DNA of 64,000 nucleotides from Neobacillus paridis (GTDB lineage: Bacteria; Bacillota; Bacilli; Bacillales; Cytobacillaceae): assembly GCF_016765675.1 (NCBI RefSeq), contig NZ_JAESWB010000371.1, forward strand, positions 1-64,000. The letters are read 5' to 3'. The position numbers were made by a program, and so were the translations under genes. Of this stretch, positions 53,092 to 64,000 are shown in pieces; the first letter of the stretch is position 1, and each line of letters opens with the position of its first letter. The notes beneath the pieces were generated by a model that worked only from the letters and a program-made list of their open reading frames with translations, was not told the origin of the DNA and did not search any database.

Positions 53092-54120
53092 CTACTTTTG
53101 TTTAAATTGAAAAGGCGTCATGGAGCTATTAATCGCATGACTTTTATAGCCATTCTTTGTTAAAAAGTCAAGTAGTTTTGGTAAGTTTGCCAGGGTTTCC
53201 TTCCGTTCATGCAAGAGAATCACAATCGGTTCCTGATGATGTTCGATTCTCCTCAACTGCTCGATCACGCTGGTTACATAGCGGCCGTCTTTGAAATACC
53301 AATCTTTACTATCGATGTTCCAATCCCACATCGAATAACCCTTTTCAATGACAGCTTTCCGATATTCCGGTGTCATCCGCGGTACACTGCCATACGGGGT
53401 TCTTATTAAATAGGAATCAACACCTGAGATTTCTTTTAAAGTGTTGCGATTTTGTTCTAATTCACCTAACACGGAATGTACTGAGGCATAAAACCGTTTG
53501 ACGTCATGAGAGACACTATGAAGCCCGACAGCTTCACCTGACTTCACCATTAATTTAGCTGCTTCAGGAAACCGGCGAATATTTCCGTCAATCATAAAAA
53601 ATGTCGCTTTAAAATGATGCTTATCTAACAGTTCAATGATATCACCGGAAAAAGGAGACGGTCCATCATCAAATGTTAAATAAACCACTTTATTCTTGGG
53701 TTCGTCTCTTCCTGATTTGTTTACTTTGTGTTCGGACACGATTGTTTTGGATTCTTTCTTTACAGGTGGAGGAGTAGCTTTATCCTTAGTGGCAGACGGT
53801 GCCGCGGCTGTATCTTGAGTCGTTTTTGATGGCACTTTTCTAATCTCTTTTACATTTTCCCTCGCAAGCGCCTGATCTTGCTGCTTTGGAATCCATTCCT
53901 TATCTTGTCTTTCATCCCTTATTTTTTGTTTTGACACATCTGGTTTGGCCTTCTTCATGACAGGGTGCTCGGCAATTTCCGTTTTTGGTTGATTCATAGG
54001 CTTGCTCGCCGCATTTGCCTGAAAATAGTTTGTAATCGAAATTCCGGCAAACACAACTCCAATCACAATGATTAGGCTTAAAGACCAGATTGACCAAATG
54101 CGCCTAAATTTCTCATTCAT
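53092..54120 (-). CDS. Polysaccharide deacetylase (NodB domain), membrane-anchored
   Basis: About 342 aa. One membrane segment (residues about 9-30) is followed by a Lys/Pro/Thr-rich linker (about 40-135) and a NodB domain: TFDDGPSPFS (metal-binding Asp), LHSVSHD (HxxxH metal ligands), RTPYGS and WDWNIDSKDW. It should deacetylate peptidoglycan N-acetylglucosamine or a similar polymer outside the cell. The ATG at 54120 follows GAGAGGGATC; the upstream GTG frame to 54165 is less likely. Confidence 0.88.
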   Translation of the reverse strand: MNEKFRRIWSIWSLSLIIVIGVVFAGISITNYFQANAASKPMNQPKTEIAEHPVMKKAKPDVSKQKIRDERQDKEWIPKQQDQALARENVKEIRKVPSKTTQDTAAAPSATKDKATPPPVKKESKTIVSEHKVNKSGRDEPKNKVVYLTFDDGPSPFSGDIIELLDKHHFKATFFMIDGNIRRFPEAAKLMVKSGEAVGLHSVSHDVKRFYASVHSVLGELEQNRNTLKEISGVDSYLIRTPYGSVPRMTPEYRKAVIEKGYSMWDWNIDSKDWYFKDGRYVTSVIEQLRRIEHHQEPIVILLHERKETLANLPKLLDFLTKNGYKSHAINSSMTPFQFKQK

Positions 54121-54387
54121 AAGATCCCTCTCTGCTGCTGTTTTTATTTTCCCCTTTATCACCATTATAGACGATATTGCCTTTAAAATGTTTCAAATGT
54201 ATTAAAAAAATTACAATTCTATTAAAAAGGTAAAAAAACTCAGGTGATAGATTTCTCTCTATCATTCTCCTATTTTATTTTACTAAAATGGAAGGAAAAT
54301 GGTAACCTTTAAAAAGAAATAGTACATGATTTAATTTTTGAAATTGAAGAAAAATGGTGAATCCTCGCAATTGTTAATCTCGCCATA

Positions 54388-54401
54388 GTGAAAATGTTCA
54401 C
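54388..54401. promoter_or_regulatory. Crp/Fnr-type (ArcR?) binding site upstream of argR
   Basis: GTGA-AAATGT-TCAC has the exact half-sites and six-base spacing of Crp/Fnr operators. It lies about 63 bases upstream of the start expected from the -10 at 54446, and it is conserved in the relic copy at 63089-63102. Confidence 0.65.
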
Positions 54402-54457
54402 CATTTATCCATGTAAATTTTAAACAAATTGGATTATCATATATATATACTAAAATG

Positions 54458-54473
54458 AAAGCGAGTTCGCTTT
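54458..54473. promoter_or_regulatory. Perfect palindrome abutting the argR start codon
   Basis: AAAGCGA-GT-TCGCTTT ends directly before the ATG at 54474, in the place where a ribosome site should be. It may be an operator or an RNA hairpin limiting argR translation. Part of it resembles a CcpA cre site, but imperfectly. Confidence 0.55.
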
Positions 54474-54926
54474 ATGAATCGAGAGATGCGATTACAGCTT
54501 ATTACTCAATTGATCTCTAAATACGAAGTAAGCACGCAGGACGAGCTACAAAAACTGCTTTTGGAAAAGGGACTGAAGGTAACCCAAGCAACCATTTCCC
54601 GGGATATTCATGCCTTGCAGCTGATCAAAGTACCAACTAAAGACGGTGGCTTTAAGTACAGCTTTAAAGTGGACCAAGAATATATCATATCAGAAAAATT
54701 AAAGCACAAGCTGCGCGACGCCCTTGTGAACATGGAAGCGATCAACTACTTTGTGGTCATTAAAACGCTGCCTGGACATGCCCATTCCTTTGGGGCGTTG
54801 TTTGACTCAATGGACCTGGAAGGAAAAGCTGGAACCATTTGTGGTAATGATACCTGCTTAATCATCTGCCGCTCTCCTGAGGAAGCCATTCATATTCAAC
54901 AGCAAATTGACTTGCTAAATCATTAA
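54474..54926 (+). CDS. argR: ArgR/AhrC-family arginine repressor of the arc cluster
   Basis: A 150-aa ArgR-type regulator: N-terminal winged helix (LQKLLLEKGLKVTQATISRDI, here in part KVTQATISRDI), a linker, and the C-terminal hexamerisation/arginine-binding domain with GTICGNDTCLIIC. The start by alignment with AhrC is the ATG at 54474, although no ribosome site is visible. A housekeeping ahrC is expected elsewhere near recN; this is likely the second, arc-linked paralogue that activates arginine catabolism. Confidence 0.88.
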   Translation: MNREMRLQLITQLISKYEVSTQDELQKLLLEKGLKVTQATISRDIHALQLIKVPTKDGGFKYSFKVDQEYIISEKLKHKLRDALVNMEAINYFVVIKTLPGHAHSFGALFDSMDLEGKAGTICGNDTCLIICRSPEEAIHIQQQIDLLNH

Positions 54927-54955
54927 TTAGGTTAACCTAGAAAGGGGTAACAAAA

Positions 54956-55654
54956 TTGCTAAATTCAGCAGTCTTACAAATGGATGTACTTTCTGATTTG
55001 CAGCAGTTTCCCAATTTAAAATTACTCCCAGCCAAAACATTACAAAAGTATATTCCTTATTTTTATTTTCGTTCTTACAAAAAAAATCAACGCCTTTTTA
55101 TGGAAGGTGATCCGCGCGATAAAATCTTCTTCTTATTGGATGGCTATGTTATGTATGAAAATAGTAATGAAGATGGCAGCATTCACTATATTGACTATGT
55201 AAAAAAGAACCAAATGTTTCCTTACTGCGGTATTTTCAACGATCCGTGCTATAAAAACACGGCGATTGCCGCTACCGATATCATGGTTTATTTTGTGCCA
55301 ACACCTATACTCGAAGAGATGCTTAAGTCCAGTGCAAAGACATTAATCCATACCATTTCAAAACTCTCTACCATTCTCGAACTTCACCAACAGCGGATGC
55401 AACAAATCATCGTACCGAATGCCCAGGAAAGAGTCCTTCATGCCCTTAAGTTCTTGATGGAAGACCTTGGTGAAATCAGTGAACATGAACTTATGATCCC
55501 TTGCCCGCTTACTGCCGCAAATATATCGAAAATTTCCGGCACCACAAGGGAAACAGTCAGCTTGATTATGAATCAATTAAAAAGAGAAGGAATTATCTCC
55601 GTTAAAGAGAAAAAGATTTGCTTTCATCAGCCAGATTATTTTGATGATCTTTAA
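54956..55654 (+). CDS. arcR: Crp/Fnr-family regulator ArcR
   Basis: A 232-aa regulator: cyclic-nucleotide-binding-like beta barrel (residues about 25-130), dimer helix, and C-terminal HTH_Crp (LTAANISKISGTTRETVSLI). Four cysteines occur at about residues 91, 98, 183 and 222. ArcR of B. licheniformis activates the arc operon under anaerobiosis. The start is a TTG at 54956 after AAAGGGG, 29 bases after argR. Confidence 0.88.
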   Translation: MLNSAVLQMDVLSDLQQFPNLKLLPAKTLQKYIPYFYFRSYKKNQRLFMEGDPRDKIFFLLDGYVMYENSNEDGSIHYIDYVKKNQMFPYCGIFNDPCYKNTAIAATDIMVYFVPTPILEEMLKSSAKTLIHTISKLSTILELHQQRMQQIIVPNAQERVLHALKFLMEDLGEISEHELMIPCPLTAANISKISGTTRETVSLIMNQLKREGIISVKEKKICFHQPDYFDDL

Positions 55655-55665
55655 GGAAATACTTA

Positions 55666-55729
55666 AGAAGGGGTCAGCAACTACTGCACTAACCCATTCG
55701 TTGTGCAATAGGCTGGCCTTTTAATTTTT
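55666..55729 (+). terminator. Terminator or attenuator between arcR and arcD1
   Basis: AAGGGGTCAGC pairs (with G-U) with GCTGGCCTTTT, enclosing an inner TGCAC/GTGCA hairpin; T-rich sequence follows. Confidence 0.6.
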
Positions 55730-55748
55730 ACATATAAGGATGGTAATA

Positions 55749-57149
55749 ATGGAAAACAAAGAAAATAATCTAGGTATTTTGGCATTAATTGCCCTAGTCA
55801 TTGGTTCACAGATCGGCGGCGGCGTATTTAATGTTGCTTCTGATTTAGCAGCAGGGGCAAATGCCGGCGCAATTATCATTGGCTGGATCATTACAGGAAT
55901 TGGCATGATCGCATTAGTTTTTACCTTTCAAAATTTAACCAATAAACGGCCGGATTTAGATGGCGGAATCTACAGTTTTGCCAAGGCAGGTTTTGGCAGC
56001 TATTTTGGATTTAACTCTGCCTGGGGTTATTGGCTGTCTGTCTGGCTCGGAAACGTCGCCTTTTTAACCCTGCTGTTCAGTGCGATCGGCTATTTTCTAC
56101 CGATATTCAATGGCGCTAATCTCGTTTCCGTGCTGGGGGCTTCTATTTTCCTTTGGTTATTAATTTTCTTTATCTCCAGAGGAATTCAAACCGCGGCCAT
56201 CATGAATATCGTTGTGACGATTGCGAAGCTCATCCCGATCTTTTTATTCATTGTCATTGCCCTGTTTGCGTTTCATTTTCATACCTTCACATTAGATTTT
56301 TGGGGTGGCACGTCATTTAACCTAGCAAACGTTATGACCCAAACGAAAAGTACGATGCTCGTCACACTATGGGTTTTTACCGGAGTAGAAGGGGCTGTTG
56401 TTTTATCACGCCGGGCCCGGAAGAAAAAGGACGTTGGCCGAGCGACGGTCATCGGCTTAATGTCCACCTTAACGATTTATATTTTAATCTCCTTATTATC
56501 CTTGGGTGTCATGACCCGAGGGGAACTTTCAAGTCTAAAAAGCCCTTCGATGGCATATGTTCTGGAAAGTATCGTGGGTCCTTGGGGGGCCATGTTTATT
56601 AATCTTGGCTTGATTATCTCGTTACTGGGGGCTCTGCTTGGCTGGACTTTATTTTCTGCAGAAATTCCATATCTGGCAGGAAAAGATGGAACGTTCCCGA
56701 AATTTTTCACGAAGGAAAATAAGCATAATGTTCCCACGAACTCCCTTATTTTCACGGGACTTTTGATTCAAATATTCCTTCTAACCTTGTTAATTTCCGA
56801 TAAGCCTTACCAGTTTGCTTTTTCGATGGCCAGTTCGACCATCTTAGTGCCTTACCTTTTTTCGGCTTTATATCAAGTGAAGTACAGCTGGCAGCATAAA
56901 GAAACAAAACAAATAATTATTGGTATCATTGCTTCTATCTATAGTTTTTGGATCTTATATGCAGCAGGGGTGACCTATTTATTATTGACATCGATATTAT
57001 ATTCACTGGGTACTCTCATTTTCTTATACGCCGCCAAAGAAAAGCAGCAGAAAGCGTTTAAACCATTTGAACTCTTATGGGCATGTCTCTTTATTCTGTT
57101 TGCCATTATTGCAATCATCATGCTAGCAACAGGAAAAATTCAAATATAG
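55749..57149 (+). CDS. arcD: Arginine/ornithine antiporter ArcD (first copy)
   Basis: A 466-aa APA-family antiporter with about 12-13 membrane segments. It has the family blocks IGSQIGGGVFN near the N-terminus and [24 protein letters not shown] late in the protein. It exchanges external arginine for ornithine made by the deiminase pathway. The ATG at 55749 follows AAGGA by eight bases; the ATG at 55740 is too close. It is strongly similar to the copy at 61146. Confidence 0.9.
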   Translation: MENKENNLGILALIALVIGSQIGGGVFNVASDLAAGANAGAIIIGWIITGIGMIALVFTFQNLTNKRPDLDGGIYSFAKAGFGSYFGFNSAWGYWLSVWLGNVAFLTLLFSAIGYFLPIFNGANLVSVLGASIFLWLLIFFISRGIQTAAIMNIVVTIAKLIPIFLFIVIALFAFHFHTFTLDFWGGTSFNLANVMTQTKSTMLVTLWVFTGVEGAVVLSRRARKKKDVGRATVIGLMSTLTIYILISLLSLGVMTRGELSSLKSPSMAYVLESIVGPWGAMFINLGLIISLLGALLGWTLFSAEIPYLAGKDGTFPKFFTKENKHNVPTNSLIFTGLLIQIFLLTLLISDKPYQFAFSMASSTILVPYLFSALYQVKYSWQHKETKQIIIGIIASIYSFWILYAAGVTYLLLTSILYSLGTLIFLYAAKEKQQKAFKPFELLWACLFILFAIIAIIMLATGKIQI

Positions 57150-57151
57150 TT

Positions 57152-57184
57152 AAAAAGGTTGGCAATTTGCCAACCTTTCTTCTA
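57152..57184 (+). terminator. Strong terminator after arcD1
   Basis: AAAGGTTGGCAA (57154-57165) pairs perfectly with TTGCCAACCTTT (57167-57178), separating argR-arcR-arcD1 from arcABC. Confidence 0.85.
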
Positions 57185-57217
57185 TTACTAATCGTTTTAA
57201 TTTTGCGAATTCATCTT

Positions 57218-57233
57218 TGTCATTTGTGTGACA
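57218..57233. promoter_or_regulatory. TGTCA-N6-TGACA inverted repeat upstream of arcA
   Basis: A perfect inverted repeat with Crp/Fnr geometry (two five-base arms, six-base gap), about 200 bases before arcA. The half-site differs from TGTGA by one base. Confidence 0.45.
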
Positions 57234-57275
57234 TCCGTTGGTTATTCAATTATTTCCTTTAAAAATCAATATTTT

Positions 57276-57293
57276 TTATGAATATATTCATAA
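57276..57293. promoter_or_regulatory. 18-bp perfect palindrome, candidate ARG operator
   Basis: TTATGAATATATTCATAA is fully self-complementary and contains TGAAT/ATTCA arms like ArgR sites. It lies about 140 bases upstream of arcA, a likely place for ArgR-type activation. Confidence 0.6.
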
Positions 57294-57350
57294 GTATGCA
57301 AATCCCCTTATACAAACAACAAAAAAATGTAATGAATTTAACAGTTTAAT

Positions 57351-57393
57351 TGTGAAGAGGCAAACAAAATTTTTCTTGCACATTGCCTAAAAT
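57351..57393 (+). promoter_or_regulatory. Candidate ArcR-activated promoter of arcABC
   Basis: A -10 TAAAAT (57388-57393) lacks a usable -35. An imperfect Crp/Fnr site TGTGA-N6-AAACA (57351-57366) is centred about 41.5 bases before the predicted start, the class II activator position. Confidence 0.5.
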
Positions 57394-57433
57394 AAAGTTG
57401 TAGCAAGGAAGTTAATAAAAAGGAGGAAGAAAG

Positions 57434-58717
57434 ATGAGCAGTATTCAAGAGACGACACGCGAGAGAGAAACAACCAAATTAAGTCATCCGATCAATGTCA
57501 CATCAGAAATTGGTACTTTAAAAACCGTTCTATTGAAACGGCCTGGAAAAGAAGTTGAAAACCTAGTGCCAGAGTATTTACAACGGCTATTATTCGACGA
57601 CATTCCATATCTACCAATTATCCAAAGAGAACATGACTACTTTGCCGAGACATTAAAAAATCGAGGCGTAGAAGTACTATACCTCGAAAAATTAGTTTCT
57701 GAAACACTCAATAATTCAGAACTAAAAAATCAATTTGTTGATGACATTTTACGCGAAAGCAACGCAAATGTCAATGGTGCTGGAAAAGCATTAAAAGAAT
57801 ATTTATTGTCATTCTCAACCCCAGATATGGTTGATAAAATCATGAGCGGTGTCCTCAAAAAGGAAATCGAAACGAGCAAGAAGACCCGTTTATACGAGTT
57901 AATGGAAGACCATTATCCATTTTATTTGGATCCAATGCCAAACCTTTATTTCACTCGTGACCCTGCAGCAAGTATGGGCAATGGTTTAACGATTAATAAA
58001 ATGCGTGAGCCTGCACGCCGCCGTGAATCTTTATTTATGGAATATATTATTAAACATCATCCAAGATTTGCCGGTCATGATGTTCCAGTTTGGCTAGATC
58101 GTGATTATGAATTCCCAATTGAAGGTGGAGACGAACTTATTTTAAGTAATGAAGTCATTGCTATTGGGGTTTCTGCACGTACATCTGCAAGAGCAATTGA
58201 AAAACTGGCTCTTAATCTATTTAAAAAGAACAGCTCCTTCAAGAAAGTTCTAGCTGTTGAGATTCCTAAGAGCCGTGCCTTCATGCACCTAGATACCGTC
58301 TTTACAATGGTAGACTATGACAAGTTTACGATTCACCCAGCTATTCAAGGACCAGAAGGCAACATGAACGTATACATCCTTGAAAAAGGTCCGGATGAAG
58401 ACCATGTTAATATCACACATCGCAACAACCTTCAAGAAGCTTTAAAAGAAGCTCTTGGACTCAGCGAGCTGATCCTTATCCCTTGCGGTGGCGGTGATGA
58501 AATTGCTGCTGCCCGTGAACAATGGAATGACGGTTCCAACACATTGGCCATTGCCCCAGGTGTTGTTGTGACATATGACCGCAACTACATTTCGAATCAA
58601 TTGTTACGTGAGCACGGAATTGAGGTCATTGAAGTCTTAAGCTCGGAATTATCCCGTGGCCGTGGGGGCCCTCGCTGCATGAGCATGCCAATTGTTCGTG
58701 AGGATCTTCGTAAGTAA
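57434..58717 (+). CDS. arcA: Arginine deiminase ArcA
   Basis: A 427-aa enzyme that converts arginine to citrulline and ammonia. The catalytic cysteine is in GGPRCMSMP near the C-terminus; the [22 protein letters not shown] and [10 protein letters not shown] blocks carry the other active-site Asp, His and Glu residues. AAAGGAGGAAG precedes the ATG. It is first of arcABC. Confidence 0.97.
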
Positions 58718-58741
58718 TTTGTTTGATAGGAGAGATTAAAT

Positions 58742-59752
58742 ATGGAAGCAACTGTATCTAAATTACACGGAAGAAGCTTTCTTCGTGAAATGGATTTTAC
58801 AAAAGAAGAATTTGTATCTTTTATCGATTTAGCAATGAAATTAAAAGACGAGAAAAAACGGGGCATCAAACACCGTTATTTAGAAGGTAAAAATATTGCA
58901 TTGTTATTTGAAAAACCATCTACTCGTACACGCTGTGCCTTCACAGTTGCTTGTATTGATCTTGGTGCACATCCTGAATATTTAGGAAAAGACGATATCC
59001 AATTAGGTAAAAAAGAATCAATCGAAGACACAGCAAAAGTATTAGGCCGCATGTTTGATGGGATTGAATTCCGTGGCTTTGAACACAAAAAGGTAGAAAT
59101 GCTGGCTGAACATTCCGGCGTTCCGGTTTGGAATGGTTTGACTGACCAATGGCATCCAACCCAAACACTTGCTGACTTCTTAACAGTAAAAGAAAACTTT
59201 GGCCATCTTGAAGGCATCAAGTTTGTCTATGTTGGCGACGGCCGTAACAACGTTGCTAACAGCTTGCTTGTTGGCGGTGCCCTTGTTGGAATGGACGTAC
59301 GGATTTGTTCTCCTGAGTCATTATTCCCAGCTAATGACATTGTGGAATTAGCAGAAAACTTAGCAAAACAATCTGGCGGTCGTGTAACCATCACCAGCGA
59401 TGTTGCAGAAGGCGTTGCTGATGCCGATGTAATTTATACTGACGTATGGGTATCTATGGGTGAAGAAGATAAATTTGCTGAAAGAATTGCGCTTCTATCT
59501 CCATATCAAGTCAACATGGAAATGATCAAAAAGACAGGCAATGACAATGTAATTTTCTTACACTGCCTACCTGCTTTCCATGATCTAGAAACAAAGTATG
59601 GCCGTGATATTCATGAAAAACATGGTCTTCCTGAAATGGAAGTAACTGATGAAGTATTCCGCAGCAAACATTCAAAAGTATTTGACCAAGCTGAAAACAG
59701 AATGCATACCATCAAAGCCGTCATGGCCGCAACTCTTGGCAAATTAGATTAA
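58742..59752 (+). CDS. arcB: Catabolic ornithine carbamoyltransferase ArcB
   Basis: A 336-aa enzyme splitting citrulline with phosphate into ornithine and carbamoyl phosphate. Carbamoyl-phosphate binding motif STRTR is in [11 protein letters not shown], the HPTQ motif in [11 protein letters not shown], and the catalytic Cys in [10 protein letters not shown]. Length and context between arcA and arcC mark the catabolic form. TAGGAGAG precedes the ATG, 24 bases after arcA. Confidence 0.96.
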
Positions 59753-59763
59753 TTTCTTTAATG

Positions 59764-59797
59764 CAGGAGAAGGAGTCTGTCTCCCTCTCCTTTCTTT
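59764..59797 (+). terminator. Hairpin between arcB and arcC
   Basis: GGAGAAGGAG (59766-59775) pairs with CTCCCTCTCC (59781-59790), followed by TTTCTTT. It may act as an attenuator, giving less arcC than arcAB. Confidence 0.65.
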
Positions 59798-59875
59798 AGT
59801 TATCTATAAAATATTGTTTCTGAAGGAACATCCCTTCCTTCTTATCAGTATATTTACGACCCGGAGGTTTATACT

Positions 59876-60838
59876 ATGAAAAATAAAAAAGTTGTTATTG
59901 CCTTAGGCGGAAATGCCATCCAATCCGGAGATGCAACCGCTGCTGCCCAACAACAGGCACTTGAAAAAACTGCGAGACAATTAGTTGATTTTATCGCTCA
60001 GGGAATTGATATCATTATTTCCCACGGTAACGGCCCTCAGGTCGGAAATATTTTACTACAGCAGGCTGCCGCTGATTCTGTTAAAAACCCAGCTATGCCG
60101 CTTGATACATGTGGTGCGATGAGCCAAGGCATGATTGGGTACTGGATGCAAAATGCAATGGAAAAAGCATTAAAAGAGCGCGGTATCCAAAAGGATGTAG
60201 CAACCGTTGTTACTCGTGTCGTTGTCGATCAAAAGGATCAGGCATTCAGCAATCCAACAAAGCCAATTGGGCCATTCTACAGTGAAGAAGAAGCTAAAAG
60301 AATTGCTGAAGAAACCGGTGCCAGCTTTAAAGAAGATGCCGGTCGCGGCTGGAGAAGAGTTGTTCCTTCACCTAAACCTGTCAGCATAAAAGAACATGCC
60401 GTTATCAATTCTCTCGTTGAACAGGGACATATTGTTATTTCTGTCGGCGGCGGCGGCATTCCTGTGATTGAAACGGAAGCTGGAGTTACTGGCGTTGAGG
60501 CTGTTATTGATAAAGACTTTGCTTCCGAAAAGCTTGCTGAGCTTGTTGGTGCAGATGCGTTAATCATTTTAACAGCAGTTGATAATGTTTATATCGATTT
60601 TAATAAACCAACTCAAAAGAAACTTGAAGATGTCACCATTGATGAATTAAATGCTTACATCGAGGCTGGTCATTTTGCAGCCGGCAGCATGCTTCCGAAG
60701 GTTGAAGCAGCGATCCAATTTGCGAAAACCAACCCTGAACGCAAAACCATCATTACTTCATTAGATCAAGCATTTAACGCGCTAAACGGCACAGCTGGAA
60801 CAGTCGTTTCCATGCATGGGGCCCCAGTTATCGCTTAA
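59876..60838 (+). CDS. arcC: Carbamate kinase ArcC
   Basis: A 320-aa enzyme that makes ATP from carbamoyl phosphate and ADP, the energy-yielding step. Motifs [10 protein letters not shown] and [11 protein letters not shown] at the N-terminus and [11 protein letters not shown] mid-protein are typical of the amino-acid kinase fold. GGAGG precedes the ATG. The second antiporter follows after 307 bases. Confidence 0.96.
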
Positions 60839-61145
60839 AATTATTGATTTGGAGTAGTCATTCCAATCGAGCTCCATTTACTTCGGAGCTCCTTGGATAC
60901 TCCTTTCCATAAACAAATATTATAATCATCAAAGCAGTAATAGCGGCTACGCTATCGTAAGCGCTGACTATTCCCTGTGGTATCAGACACCTTCAAATTG
61001 TCACAATAAATGAAAACTCGCCTATTGGCGGGCCCTTAAGGACGAAGACAGAGCACAATTGAATTTATCCATCCTATTAGCTTAAAGAAGGACAGACATC
61101 ATGGGGATGGCAGCATAACTTCCTTAAAGAAATGAAGGTGTTCAC
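60839..61145. other. Gap between arcC and arcD2
   Basis: A GAGCTCC/GGAGCTC hairpin (60869-60891) may end arcABC transcription, though the T tract is poor. Copy C of dispersed repeat 2 lies at 61013-61085. No promoter for arcD2 is obvious. Confidence 0.5.
61013..61085 (+). repeat. Dispersed repeat family 2, copy C
   Basis: Reads AAAACTCGCCTATTGGCGGG, then CCCTTAAGGACGAAGACAGA, GCACAATTGAATTTATCC and CCTATTAGCTTAA. Same orientation as copies A, B and D. It lies directly upstream of arcD2. Confidence 0.8.
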
Positions 61146-62543
61146 TTGGAAAATGAAAAAAAACTTGGTTTGATTTCGCTCATTGCCTTGGTCATTGGTT
61201 CGATGATCGGCGGTGGAGCGTTTAATATCGCTTCTGATATGGCCTCAGGGGCCAGTGCCGGAGCGGTCATACTTGGCTGGATTATCACTGGAATCGGGAT
61301 GATCACCTTAGGGTTTTCATTTCAGAATTTAACCAATAAACGGCCTGATTTAGAAGGCGGTGTCTTTAGTTATGCCAAAGCAGGTTTCGGTAATTATTGG
61401 GGATTCAATTCAGCCTGGGGGTATTGGTTGTCAGCATGGCTAGGTAATATTGCATTTTTAACACTTTTATTTAGTGGAATTGGCTATTTTATACCGATAT
61501 TTAACGGAGGAAATGTTGCTTCGATTATCGGCGCTTCCATAATTCTTTGGCTCATGCACTTTCTCATCTTACGGGGCGTTCAATCAGCAGCACTGGTAAA
61601 TCTAGTTGTTACCATTGGTAAGCTTGTGCCGATTTTCCTCTTCATCATCATTGTCATTTTTGCCTTTAATATCGATACCTTTAGCCTCGATTTCTGGGGG
61701 AAGAATGGTTTTCATCTTTCCGATGTATTGAGTCAAACAAAGAGTACCATGCTTGTTACCCTTTGGGTGTTTATTGGGATCGAAGGGGCAGTTGTTCTGT
61801 CAAGTAGAGCCCAGAATATGAAAGATGTCGGAAAAGCGACGGTCATTGGTTTACTTTCCACCTTGGTTATTTACGTGTTGATTTCCTTGTTATCCTATGG
61901 AATTATGTCACAGGCAGAACTGGCAAATTTAAAGAGCCCTTCTATGGCTTATGTATTAAAAGAAGTTGTCGGCCCTTGGGGAGCAGCGATCGTCAATTTA
62001 GGGTTAATCGTTTCCCTCTTAGGTGCTTTATTAGGGTGGACACTATTGGCTGCTGAGTTGCCTTATGTCGCAGCAAAAGATGGAATTTTACCAAAATATT
62101 TTGCTAAAGAAAATAAGAATAAGGCACCAGTAAATTCGTTAATTATTACCAATGTGTTGGTGCAATTATTCTTGCTTACTTTGTTAATTTCCGACAAACC
62201 ATACCAATTCGCCTATTCGTTAGCCAGTTCGGCAATTTTAGTACCCTATCTTTTCTCTGCTCTCTATCAAGTGAAATATAGCAGCCAGCAAAAGGATACC
62301 AAGCAAATGGTCATTGGTATTATTGCTTCCATCTATGGGGTATGGCTGTTATATGCAGCAGGGCTTAGTTATTTAGTGCTAACTTCATTGTTGTATGCAA
62401 TTGGAATCTTGGTCTTTCGATATGCCCAAAAGGAAAATGGCCAGAAGACATTTAAAACCTTTGAACTGGTCTGGGCGATTATTTTCATCATCCTTGCGAT
62501 TGTCGCTATTATCATGTTAGCAACAGGACAAATCAATATTTAG
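61146..62543 (+). CDS. arcD2: Arginine/ornithine antiporter ArcD (second copy)
   Basis: A 465-aa APA-family antiporter, closely similar to the first copy over its full length (for example [19 protein letters not shown] against IGSQIGGGVFNVASDLAAG). It starts with a TTG after GAAGGTG. A tandem-paralogue relationship with arcD1 is clear. The gene is bracketed by family 2 repeats at 61013 and 63221, and a family 1 repeat starts four bases after its stop. Confidence 0.9.
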
Positions 62544-62547
62544 GACC

Positions 62548-62839
62548 AGAAAAGCGGAAGCGCCTTGGTCAGCGGCGTATGGCCTCCTCGAAAAAGCTAT
62601 CGCTTTTCCTTCGTGCGATGCAAATGCTGTCGAAGCCTTCCTTGTGGAGCGCTCCAACTGAGATAAAGGAAACACGAAGAGCCAAGTAACTACCTGAAAA
62701 TGCTTCCTAGGCTTTGCGACGAGCTGAACATCAGCTTCGTTGAATAAGCTTTGGCGCAGAAGCAGGAGGCGATTCGATGTTGACTTATCGTAGGGCGGAG
62801 AGCGAAGGACACTAGCCGCTAGGCGCTGAAGCTGGACAA
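62548..62839 (+). repeat. Dispersed repeat family 1, copy 2
   Basis: About 292 bases, with the same ends as the copy in the suf operon: AGAAAAGCGGAAGCGCCTTGG at the left and CTAGGCGCTGAAGCTGGACA at the right. The interior is longer and different, with several partial hairpins (AAAAGCTATCGCTTTT). It begins just after the arcD2 stop codon. Confidence 0.8.
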
Positions 62840-62841
62840 TA

Positions 62842-62876
62842 AGAAAACCGGGCGAAAAACCGCCCGGTCCTTCTAG
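62842..62876 (+). terminator. Terminator downstream of arcD2
   Basis: ACCGGGCG (62847-62854) pairs with CGCCCGGT (62861-62868), followed by CCTTCT. Confidence 0.75.
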
Positions 62877-62929
62877 GATAAAGGAATTTCCTCTTTTACA
62901 TAACACATCAAACAAACACCTAGCTGAGG

Positions 62930-63220
62930 AAAACCTTGGGTGATATATTTCCTTTCCTGCCATTAACATTCTGATTGAAATGGAGAGAAAATGGTAACCC
63001 TAAAAACATTACTTTCTTTTTTGCATATAACCTTTTGTTGTGAATTAAAAAAATATAGTGAATCCTTGAAATTATTAATTTTGCCATCGTGAGAATGTTC
63101 ACAATTTATTCATGTGAATTATTAGATAGCTATACTAAAATGAAGGCGAATACGCAACTATATGAATGGAGAAATGTGATTACAGCTTATTACTCAATTG
63201 ATCTCTTTCCTATCTTGAAG
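62930..63220 (+). pseudogene. Relic of a second argR upstream region and first codons
   Basis: This stretch repeats the argR leader at about 54240-54520. Shared blocks include AAAATGGTAACC, GTGAATCCT, the GTGA-N6-TCAC site (63089-63102), TATACTAAAATGAA, and the coding start ATGAATGGAGAAATG against ATGAATCGAGAGATG. Then GATTACAGCTTATTACTCAA is identical in both. The relic has a TGA at codon 6 and stops matching after about 17 codons, close to copy D of repeat 2. It is a decayed, truncated duplicate. Confidence 0.85.
63089..63102. promoter_or_regulatory. Crp/Fnr-type site in the argR relic
   Basis: GTGA-GAATGT-TCAC, the counterpart of 54388-54401. Sequence around it has drifted but both arms are intact. 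It could still serve the downstream pepV gene. Confidence 0.5.
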
Positions 63221-63311
63221 AAAACTCGCCGATTGGCGTGCCTCTAGACGAAGACAGAGACGTAGTTGCACTTATGCCTCATAGGAAAGATTATCCTTTC
63301 CTATCGGCTAA
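63221..63311 (+). repeat. Dispersed repeat family 2, copy D
   Basis: AAAACTCGCCGATTGGCGTG, then CCTCTAGACGAAGACAGAGA, CGTAGTTGCACTTATGCC, and a longer tail ending CCTATCGGCTAA. It begins at the break of the argR relic and ends about 33 bases before pepV. Confidence 0.8.
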
Positions 63312-63344
63312 AAAAATTTTTCTAAAGGAGGCTGAAAGATCACA

Positions 63345-64000
63345 ATGAGCTTAGATAACTTAATTCCTGAACTGCGCAAAGTTGAATCAGATTTTCATCA
63401 GGCACTGACAGAGCTAATCGCCATTCCTAGTGTTATTGATGAAAATGAAAGGGATTTCGCATTTGGAAAACAAATTGACCTAGCTCTTAAAAAAGCATTA
63501 GAGATCTGTCAGCAGTTAGGCTTTCGTACTTACTATGATCCAAAAGGTTATTACGGCTACGCTGAAATTGGTGAAGGAGAAGAAATGGTTGGCATCTTGG
63601 GTCACCTTGATGTTGTCCCGGCTGGAAGCCTCGATGAATGGCAGACATCACCATTTGAAGCGGTCATAAAAGACGGAATTATGTATGGGCGCGGTACCCA
63701 GGATGATAAGGGACCGACTCTTGCTGCCCTCTTTGCCGTAAAAGCGCTAATGAATCTCGGTGTTACCTTTAATAAGCGCGTTCGCTTCATTTTTGGAACC
63801 GATGAGGAAACCTTATGGCGCGACATGAAACGCTACTGCGAAATCGAAGAAATTCCGACAATGGGCTTTACACCGGACTCGACATTTCCATTAGTTTATG
63901 CCGAAAAAGGTCTGCTACAGCTTCATTTACAAGGAAAAAATGAAACAAGCTTGCGGCTGCAATCCGGCAGTGCCTTTAATGCGGTGCCTGACTCTGCCCA
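63345..64000 (+). CDS. pepV: PepV/Sapep-type M20 dipeptidase (5' part)
   Basis: The first 218 residues of an M20 metallodipeptidase; the gene runs off the window (family length about 460-470). Zinc ligands and catalytic residues are visible: GHLDVVP (His, with catalytic Asp two residues on), RGTQDDKGPT (bridging Asp) and FGTDEETLW (general base Glu and ligand Glu). It hydrolyses dipeptides in the cytoplasm. AAAGGAGG precedes the ATG. It is not part of the core arc pathway but could supply free amino acids from peptides. Confidence 0.92.
   Translation, partial: MSLDNLIPELRKVESDFHQALTELIAIPSVIDENERDFAFGKQIDLALKKALEICQQLGFRTYYDPKGYYGYAEIGEGEEMVGILGHLDVVPAGSLDEWQTSPFEAVIKDGIMYGRGTQDDKGPTLAALFAVKALMNLGVTFNKRVRFIFGTDEETLWRDMKRYCEIEEIPTMGFTPDSTFPLVYAEKGLLQLHLQGKNETSLRLQSGSAFNAVPDSA

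Follow-up and report, generated by a model that had tools for sequence, protein, structure and literature searches.

Why does the beginning of argR appear a second time, cut off from the rest of the gene, between an antiporter gene and a dipeptidase gene? The window, that is, the whole 64,000-nucleotide stretch of DNA that was analysed, lies on contig C303 of a 4.6-Mb Neobacillus genome (G000). Its genes run in the order argR, arcR (Crp/Fnr family), arcD1, arcA, arcB, arcC, arcD2, a gap, and pepV. The gap between arcD2 and pepV holds 277 bases, here called argR', which an earlier note had read as a second argR leader with the first codons, decayed and truncated, and with a Crp/Fnr-type site kept in better state than its surroundings. 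Is argR' a true duplicate, and has selection kept any part of it? The genes and stretches concerned are:

54234 to 54518, + strand: region upstream of argR plus its first 15 codons, the source of argR' (by alignment)
54474 to 54926, + strand: intact argR, 150 aa, with Arg_repressor N- and C-terminal domains
61146 to 62543, + strand: arcD2, arginine-ornithine antiporter, 95% identical in amino acids to the arcD of a second arc operon (contig C371)
62930 to 63206, + strand: argR', the truncated second copy of argR codons 1-15 and the region upstream of them (by alignment, 209/261 identical)
63162 to 63206, + strand: within argR', the relic of argR codons 1-15, with a stop at codon 6
63345 to 63998, + strand: pepV-like gene for an M20/Sapep dipeptidase, incomplete because the window ends here; M20 metallopeptidase and dipeptidase models are its best NCBIfam matches

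The pairwise alignment of 62930-63206 with 54234-54518 contains nine gaps, six of them of at least 3 nt. Its score is 114.5, while 500 dinucleotide-preserving shuffles give a mean of 14.4, a standard deviation of 2.0 and a maximum of 25.5; the identity is thus not limited to AT-rich low-complexity sequence. When 62930-63340 was searched against its own genome, the argR' part matched the real argR leader only, and the 30 other matches belonged to the repeat on its right. The shuffles and this search together rule out a chance or low-complexity similarity, and the decayed, truncated second leader of the earlier note stands. The relic begins ATG AAT GGA GAA ATG TGA, and the reported stop at codon 6 is confirmed as TGA in place of the CGA of the original. 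The homology to argR ends at 63206, after codon 15, and a dispersed repeat starts about 10 nt further on, at 63216-63218, which bears out the abrupt end near a repeat. With a similarity to its parent beyond chance and a disabled reading frame, argR' has two marks of a pseudogene. Most of what is left is upstream DNA, as 232 of the 277 nt lie 5' of the ATG. Identity is 166/215 over 62930-63160 and 43/46 over 63161-63206 (one base 5' of the ATG plus codons 1-15), so that the leader has diverged more than the coding stretch (p = 0.013). Even decay of the copy, combined with constraint on the coding sequence of the original argR, would give such a difference.

What else lies in the gap? The following elements surround argR':

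62548 to 62840, + strand: dispersed repeat of about 293 nt immediately downstream of arcD2; three other copies are 98% identical
62844 to 62871, - strand: hairpin, terminator-like for leftward transcription according to the scan
63216 to 63317, + strand: dispersed hairpin repeat of about 100 nt abutting argR' (boundaries approximate)

Counting itself, the longer repeat gives 58 whole or partial matches in the genome, and it may have been mobile recently given the identity of its three other copies. The 30 other full or partial matches of the shorter repeat include some that are pieces of one copy; one partial copy lies at 61012-61053, and stretches related to this repeat follow arcD1 in G009 and, in G030, separate arcA from the promoter region. 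The terminator scan found no rightward terminator-like site between arcD2 and pepV. The shorter repeat was considered as such a terminator and rejected: it forms a hairpin, yet no rightward terminator-like match falls there. A search of the gap (62540-63360) for remnants of neighbouring genes returned argR codons 1-15 at E = 2e-4 and no credible relic of arcR, arcD1 or arcABC; the next matches, to nadE (0.017 and 0.081) and weaker ones, were taken as chance. An Rfam search of 53800-64000 gave no credible match (one sub-threshold microRNA at E = 0.3 was taken as chance), and 63080-63215 folds no better than its shuffles (z = 0.67).

Is the duplicate shared with relatives? The DNA of 63040-63212 was searched against 193 genomes of the family and that of 62930-63212 against 61 genomes of the genus. 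No convincing second copy was found outside G000 among the 193 family genomes, in a search that missed most orthologous argR leaders, so that a strongly diverged copy could escape it. The matches outside G000 were the argR leaders of G025 and G021, plus two of 32 nt, one in G021 (contig C44) and one in G030. These two short matches were rejected as second copies and put down to chance, since the original leader is unmatched over that stretch and the box described below is lacking. At the protein level, each of the 193 genomes has one or two ArgR matches (E at most 1e-10), never three. Gene order was then compared around 25 arc-linked argR genes (at least 55% identical), that of G000 included. 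None of these 25 loci has a second argR, though pepV lies outside the stretch in nine of them (for example in G006, at a contig end); the intact second argR between arcD2 and pepV that the earlier note had suggested looking for was thus found neither in the 193 genomes nor in the 25 loci. In the 16 loci with pepV in view, pepV stands between arcB and arcC in 13 and after arcC in G000, G025 and G009, and only G000 has arcD2 between arcC and pepV together with argR'. G025, the closest by ArgR identity, reads argR-arcR-arcD-arcABC-pepV, with neither arcD2 nor argR'.

Two short elements of the duplicated leader might be thought worth keeping, the Crp/Fnr-type dyad and, overlapping it by 7 nt, an 18-nt box:

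54395 to 54412, + strand: 18-nt argR-leader box in the original, TGTTCACNNTTTRTNCAT, conserved in relatives
54435 to 54440, + strand: -10-like TATCAT in the original, 40 nt from where the box starts; 13/17 aligned relatives have TATGAT in these columns
63089 to 63102, + strand: Crp/Fnr-type dyad GTGA-N6-TCAC, GTGAGAATGTTCAC, present in the copy and no better preserved than its flanks
63096 to 63113, + strand: the 18-nt box in the copy, with two changes, both at positions that vary in relatives
63136 to 63141, + strand: TAAAAT in the copy, 40 nt from the box start, a putative substitute -10

The claim that the dyad is better preserved than its surroundings does not hold. Between the two copies its 16-mer is identical at 13/16 positions and the flanks of 60 nt on either side at 89/111 (Fisher p = 1.0); the 14-nt core has 1/14 mismatches (p = 0.46), and of the 246 windows of 16 columns, 151, the dyad's own among them, are preserved at least as well. 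Nor does the dyad look selectively kept in a wider sense: besides showing no excess preservation, GTGA-N6-TCAC occurs in one of the 25 argR leaders scanned, that of G000, and in 0/24 others. How does it compare with known ArcR sites? The arc promoters of the S. aureus ACME carry an ArcR/Crp-type box, TGTGA-N6-TCACA, according to the published account (PMC5452487). With that box the dyad at 63089 shares the GTGA and TCAC half-sites and the N6 spacing, but it lacks the left outer T, where the copy has C and the original A, and is absent from the 24 other argR leaders scanned. TGTGA-N6-TCACA itself is found at arcA in G070 and G155, and the same columns of the arcA leader in Neobacillus read like TGTNA-N6-TNACA, which suggests that the ArcR sites of this group may look unlike the dyad. 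The arcA leader of the window (about 57200-57434) has several conserved blocks that occur also in relatives, and one of them is ARG-box-like, TACATAAATATGCA in some relatives.

The 18-nt box is a different matter as far as the original is concerned. Among the 25 argR leaders it is exact in 16, has one mismatch in four and two in two, and was not found in three; the relatives' leaders that bear it are among L044, L050, L058, L060-L073 and L079. It starts 79-88 nt upstream of the argR start codon and 40 nt upstream of the -10, which is TATGAT in 13/17 aligned relatives. In G000 a search without mismatches finds it at two places, argR and the copy, and one mismatch adds three more places, against two for a reversed control pattern. 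Set beside the ARG box, the operator of Bacillus ArgR/AhrC, the 18-nt box has in its 3' half, TTTRTNCAT, a resemblance to one half-site, while its 5' half gives no inverted half-site.

Has the box been kept in the copy by selection? Columns were counted over 17 relatives, after G141, G160, G159, G070, G155, G131 and G007 had been dropped as distant or of other genera. The copy has changed at 4/54 conserved columns and 14/65 variable ones (p = 0.04), a deficit that speaks against neutrality but that change on the original's own branch would also predict. The box has 2/18 mismatches (p = 0.54 against the rest), and at the copy's rate for conserved columns (4/54) a box of 14 positions would survive by chance with a probability of about 0.34. 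Around the box the promoter has decayed. The spacer from box to -10, ungapped in the 17 relatives, is 16 nt shorter; T63125 of the -10 and Shine-Dalgarno columns 63145 and 63150 have changed, where each column is the same as in G000 in 17/17 relatives; and 3 nt have been inserted before the ATG, where length varies in relatives too. Against neutrality, TAAAAT lies exactly 40 nt from the start of the box, and hexamers as -10-like as this occur at only 4/272 positions of the copy. The rightward promoter-like sites of the region number five, no excess over the shuffle mean of 6.5.

We therefore consider argR' to be a non-functional, neutral relic of a local duplication that was later truncated, an ordinary decaying duplicate, with a probability of roughly three in four. 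No selection need be invoked for the box or the dyad to have survived. Truncated pseudogene relics of local duplications are part of ordinary bacterial genome decay, and argR' resembles them in being the 5' fragment of a paralogue with a nonsense codon, truncated beside a dispersed repeat and present in one genome; it is unlike them in that the piece retained is mostly upstream DNA. How might it have arisen? In this Neobacillus lineage a second copy of DNA that begins upstream of argR came to lie, with its orientation unchanged, in the repeat-rich gap before pepV; it may represent one end of a local tandem duplication that involved the arc cluster. What followed in the extra copy would then have been deleted up to the repeat before pepV; the truncated end is what is seen of that deletion. 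The remaining leader and 15 codons have drifted, as the comparison shows, gaining the stop, losing part of the spacer and a -10 base, and keeping a weakened Shine-Dalgarno sequence. A tandem duplication followed by deletion would explain the orientation, the position and the missing remainder together. That step is not proven, since the other arc genes have left no credible trace in the gap, and the sequence would fit a short insertion just as well.

Could the leader instead have been kept as a promoter of pepV, responding to the same regulator as argR? Shared control would make sense, since 16 of the 25 loci have a pepV-type gene within the arc cluster or next to it. With arcD2 and the repeats standing between pepV and the other arc genes, argR' would have put pepV back under arc-type control. 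The box in the copy still fits the consensus exactly, and the 16-nt deletion would have set TAAAAT in the 40-nt register that TATCAT has in the original, with a start probably near 63148. A transcript from there would reach pepV through a long 5' leader that crosses the repeat, where it would meet no rightward terminator-like site; such leaders do occur, to judge by the repeat-like stretch before arcA in G030. Several observations speak against this possibility. Neither box nor dyad is conserved in excess, the original -10 is lost, and the sole rightward promoter-like site that the consensus scan finds in the copy (62963-62992) does not coincide with the box but lies upstream. The lack of a rightward terminator-like site also means that pepV may be served by read-through from arcD2, and the box stands before pepV in 0/15 other loci with pepV in view. 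On balance we regard a role in pepV control as unlikely.

A further possibility is that arcD2 and argR' arrived together in a single block, whether from a different locus or from a sister species. The arc locus of G025, the closest relative, has neither of them, and arcD2 has an evident counterpart elsewhere in the genome: its DNA homology to C371 spans 60927-62545 and begins 219 nt upstream of the gene. But this homology stops at 62545, beside the stop codon and before argR' is reached. Nor do the ages seem to agree. Whereas arcD2 differs from the arcD of C371 at 86/199 fourfold sites, argR' differs from argR at 49/215 leader positions and 3/46 coding positions (leader against fourfold sites, p = 1e-5). 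Provided that drift is similar at leader and fourfold sites, argR' is the more recent arrival, and the two were probably separate events. A joint arrival is thus very improbable. The second arc operon (arcA-arcB-arcD-arcC, L053), whose arcA, arcB and arcC share only 60-68% identity with their counterparts in the window, was also tried as the source of argR' and rejected, as no argR-leader similarity was found there.

What, then, does argR' mean for the biology of these bacteria? If pepV were after all controlled from it, it would offer a clear example from nature of a regulator gene's leader that, once duplicated, came to serve a different gene as its promoter. As the neutral relic that we prefer, argR' merely records the rearrangement history of the arginine-catabolism cluster. 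The relic has also exposed the 18-nt box before the arc-linked argR genes of Neobacillus, which is a testable candidate operator.
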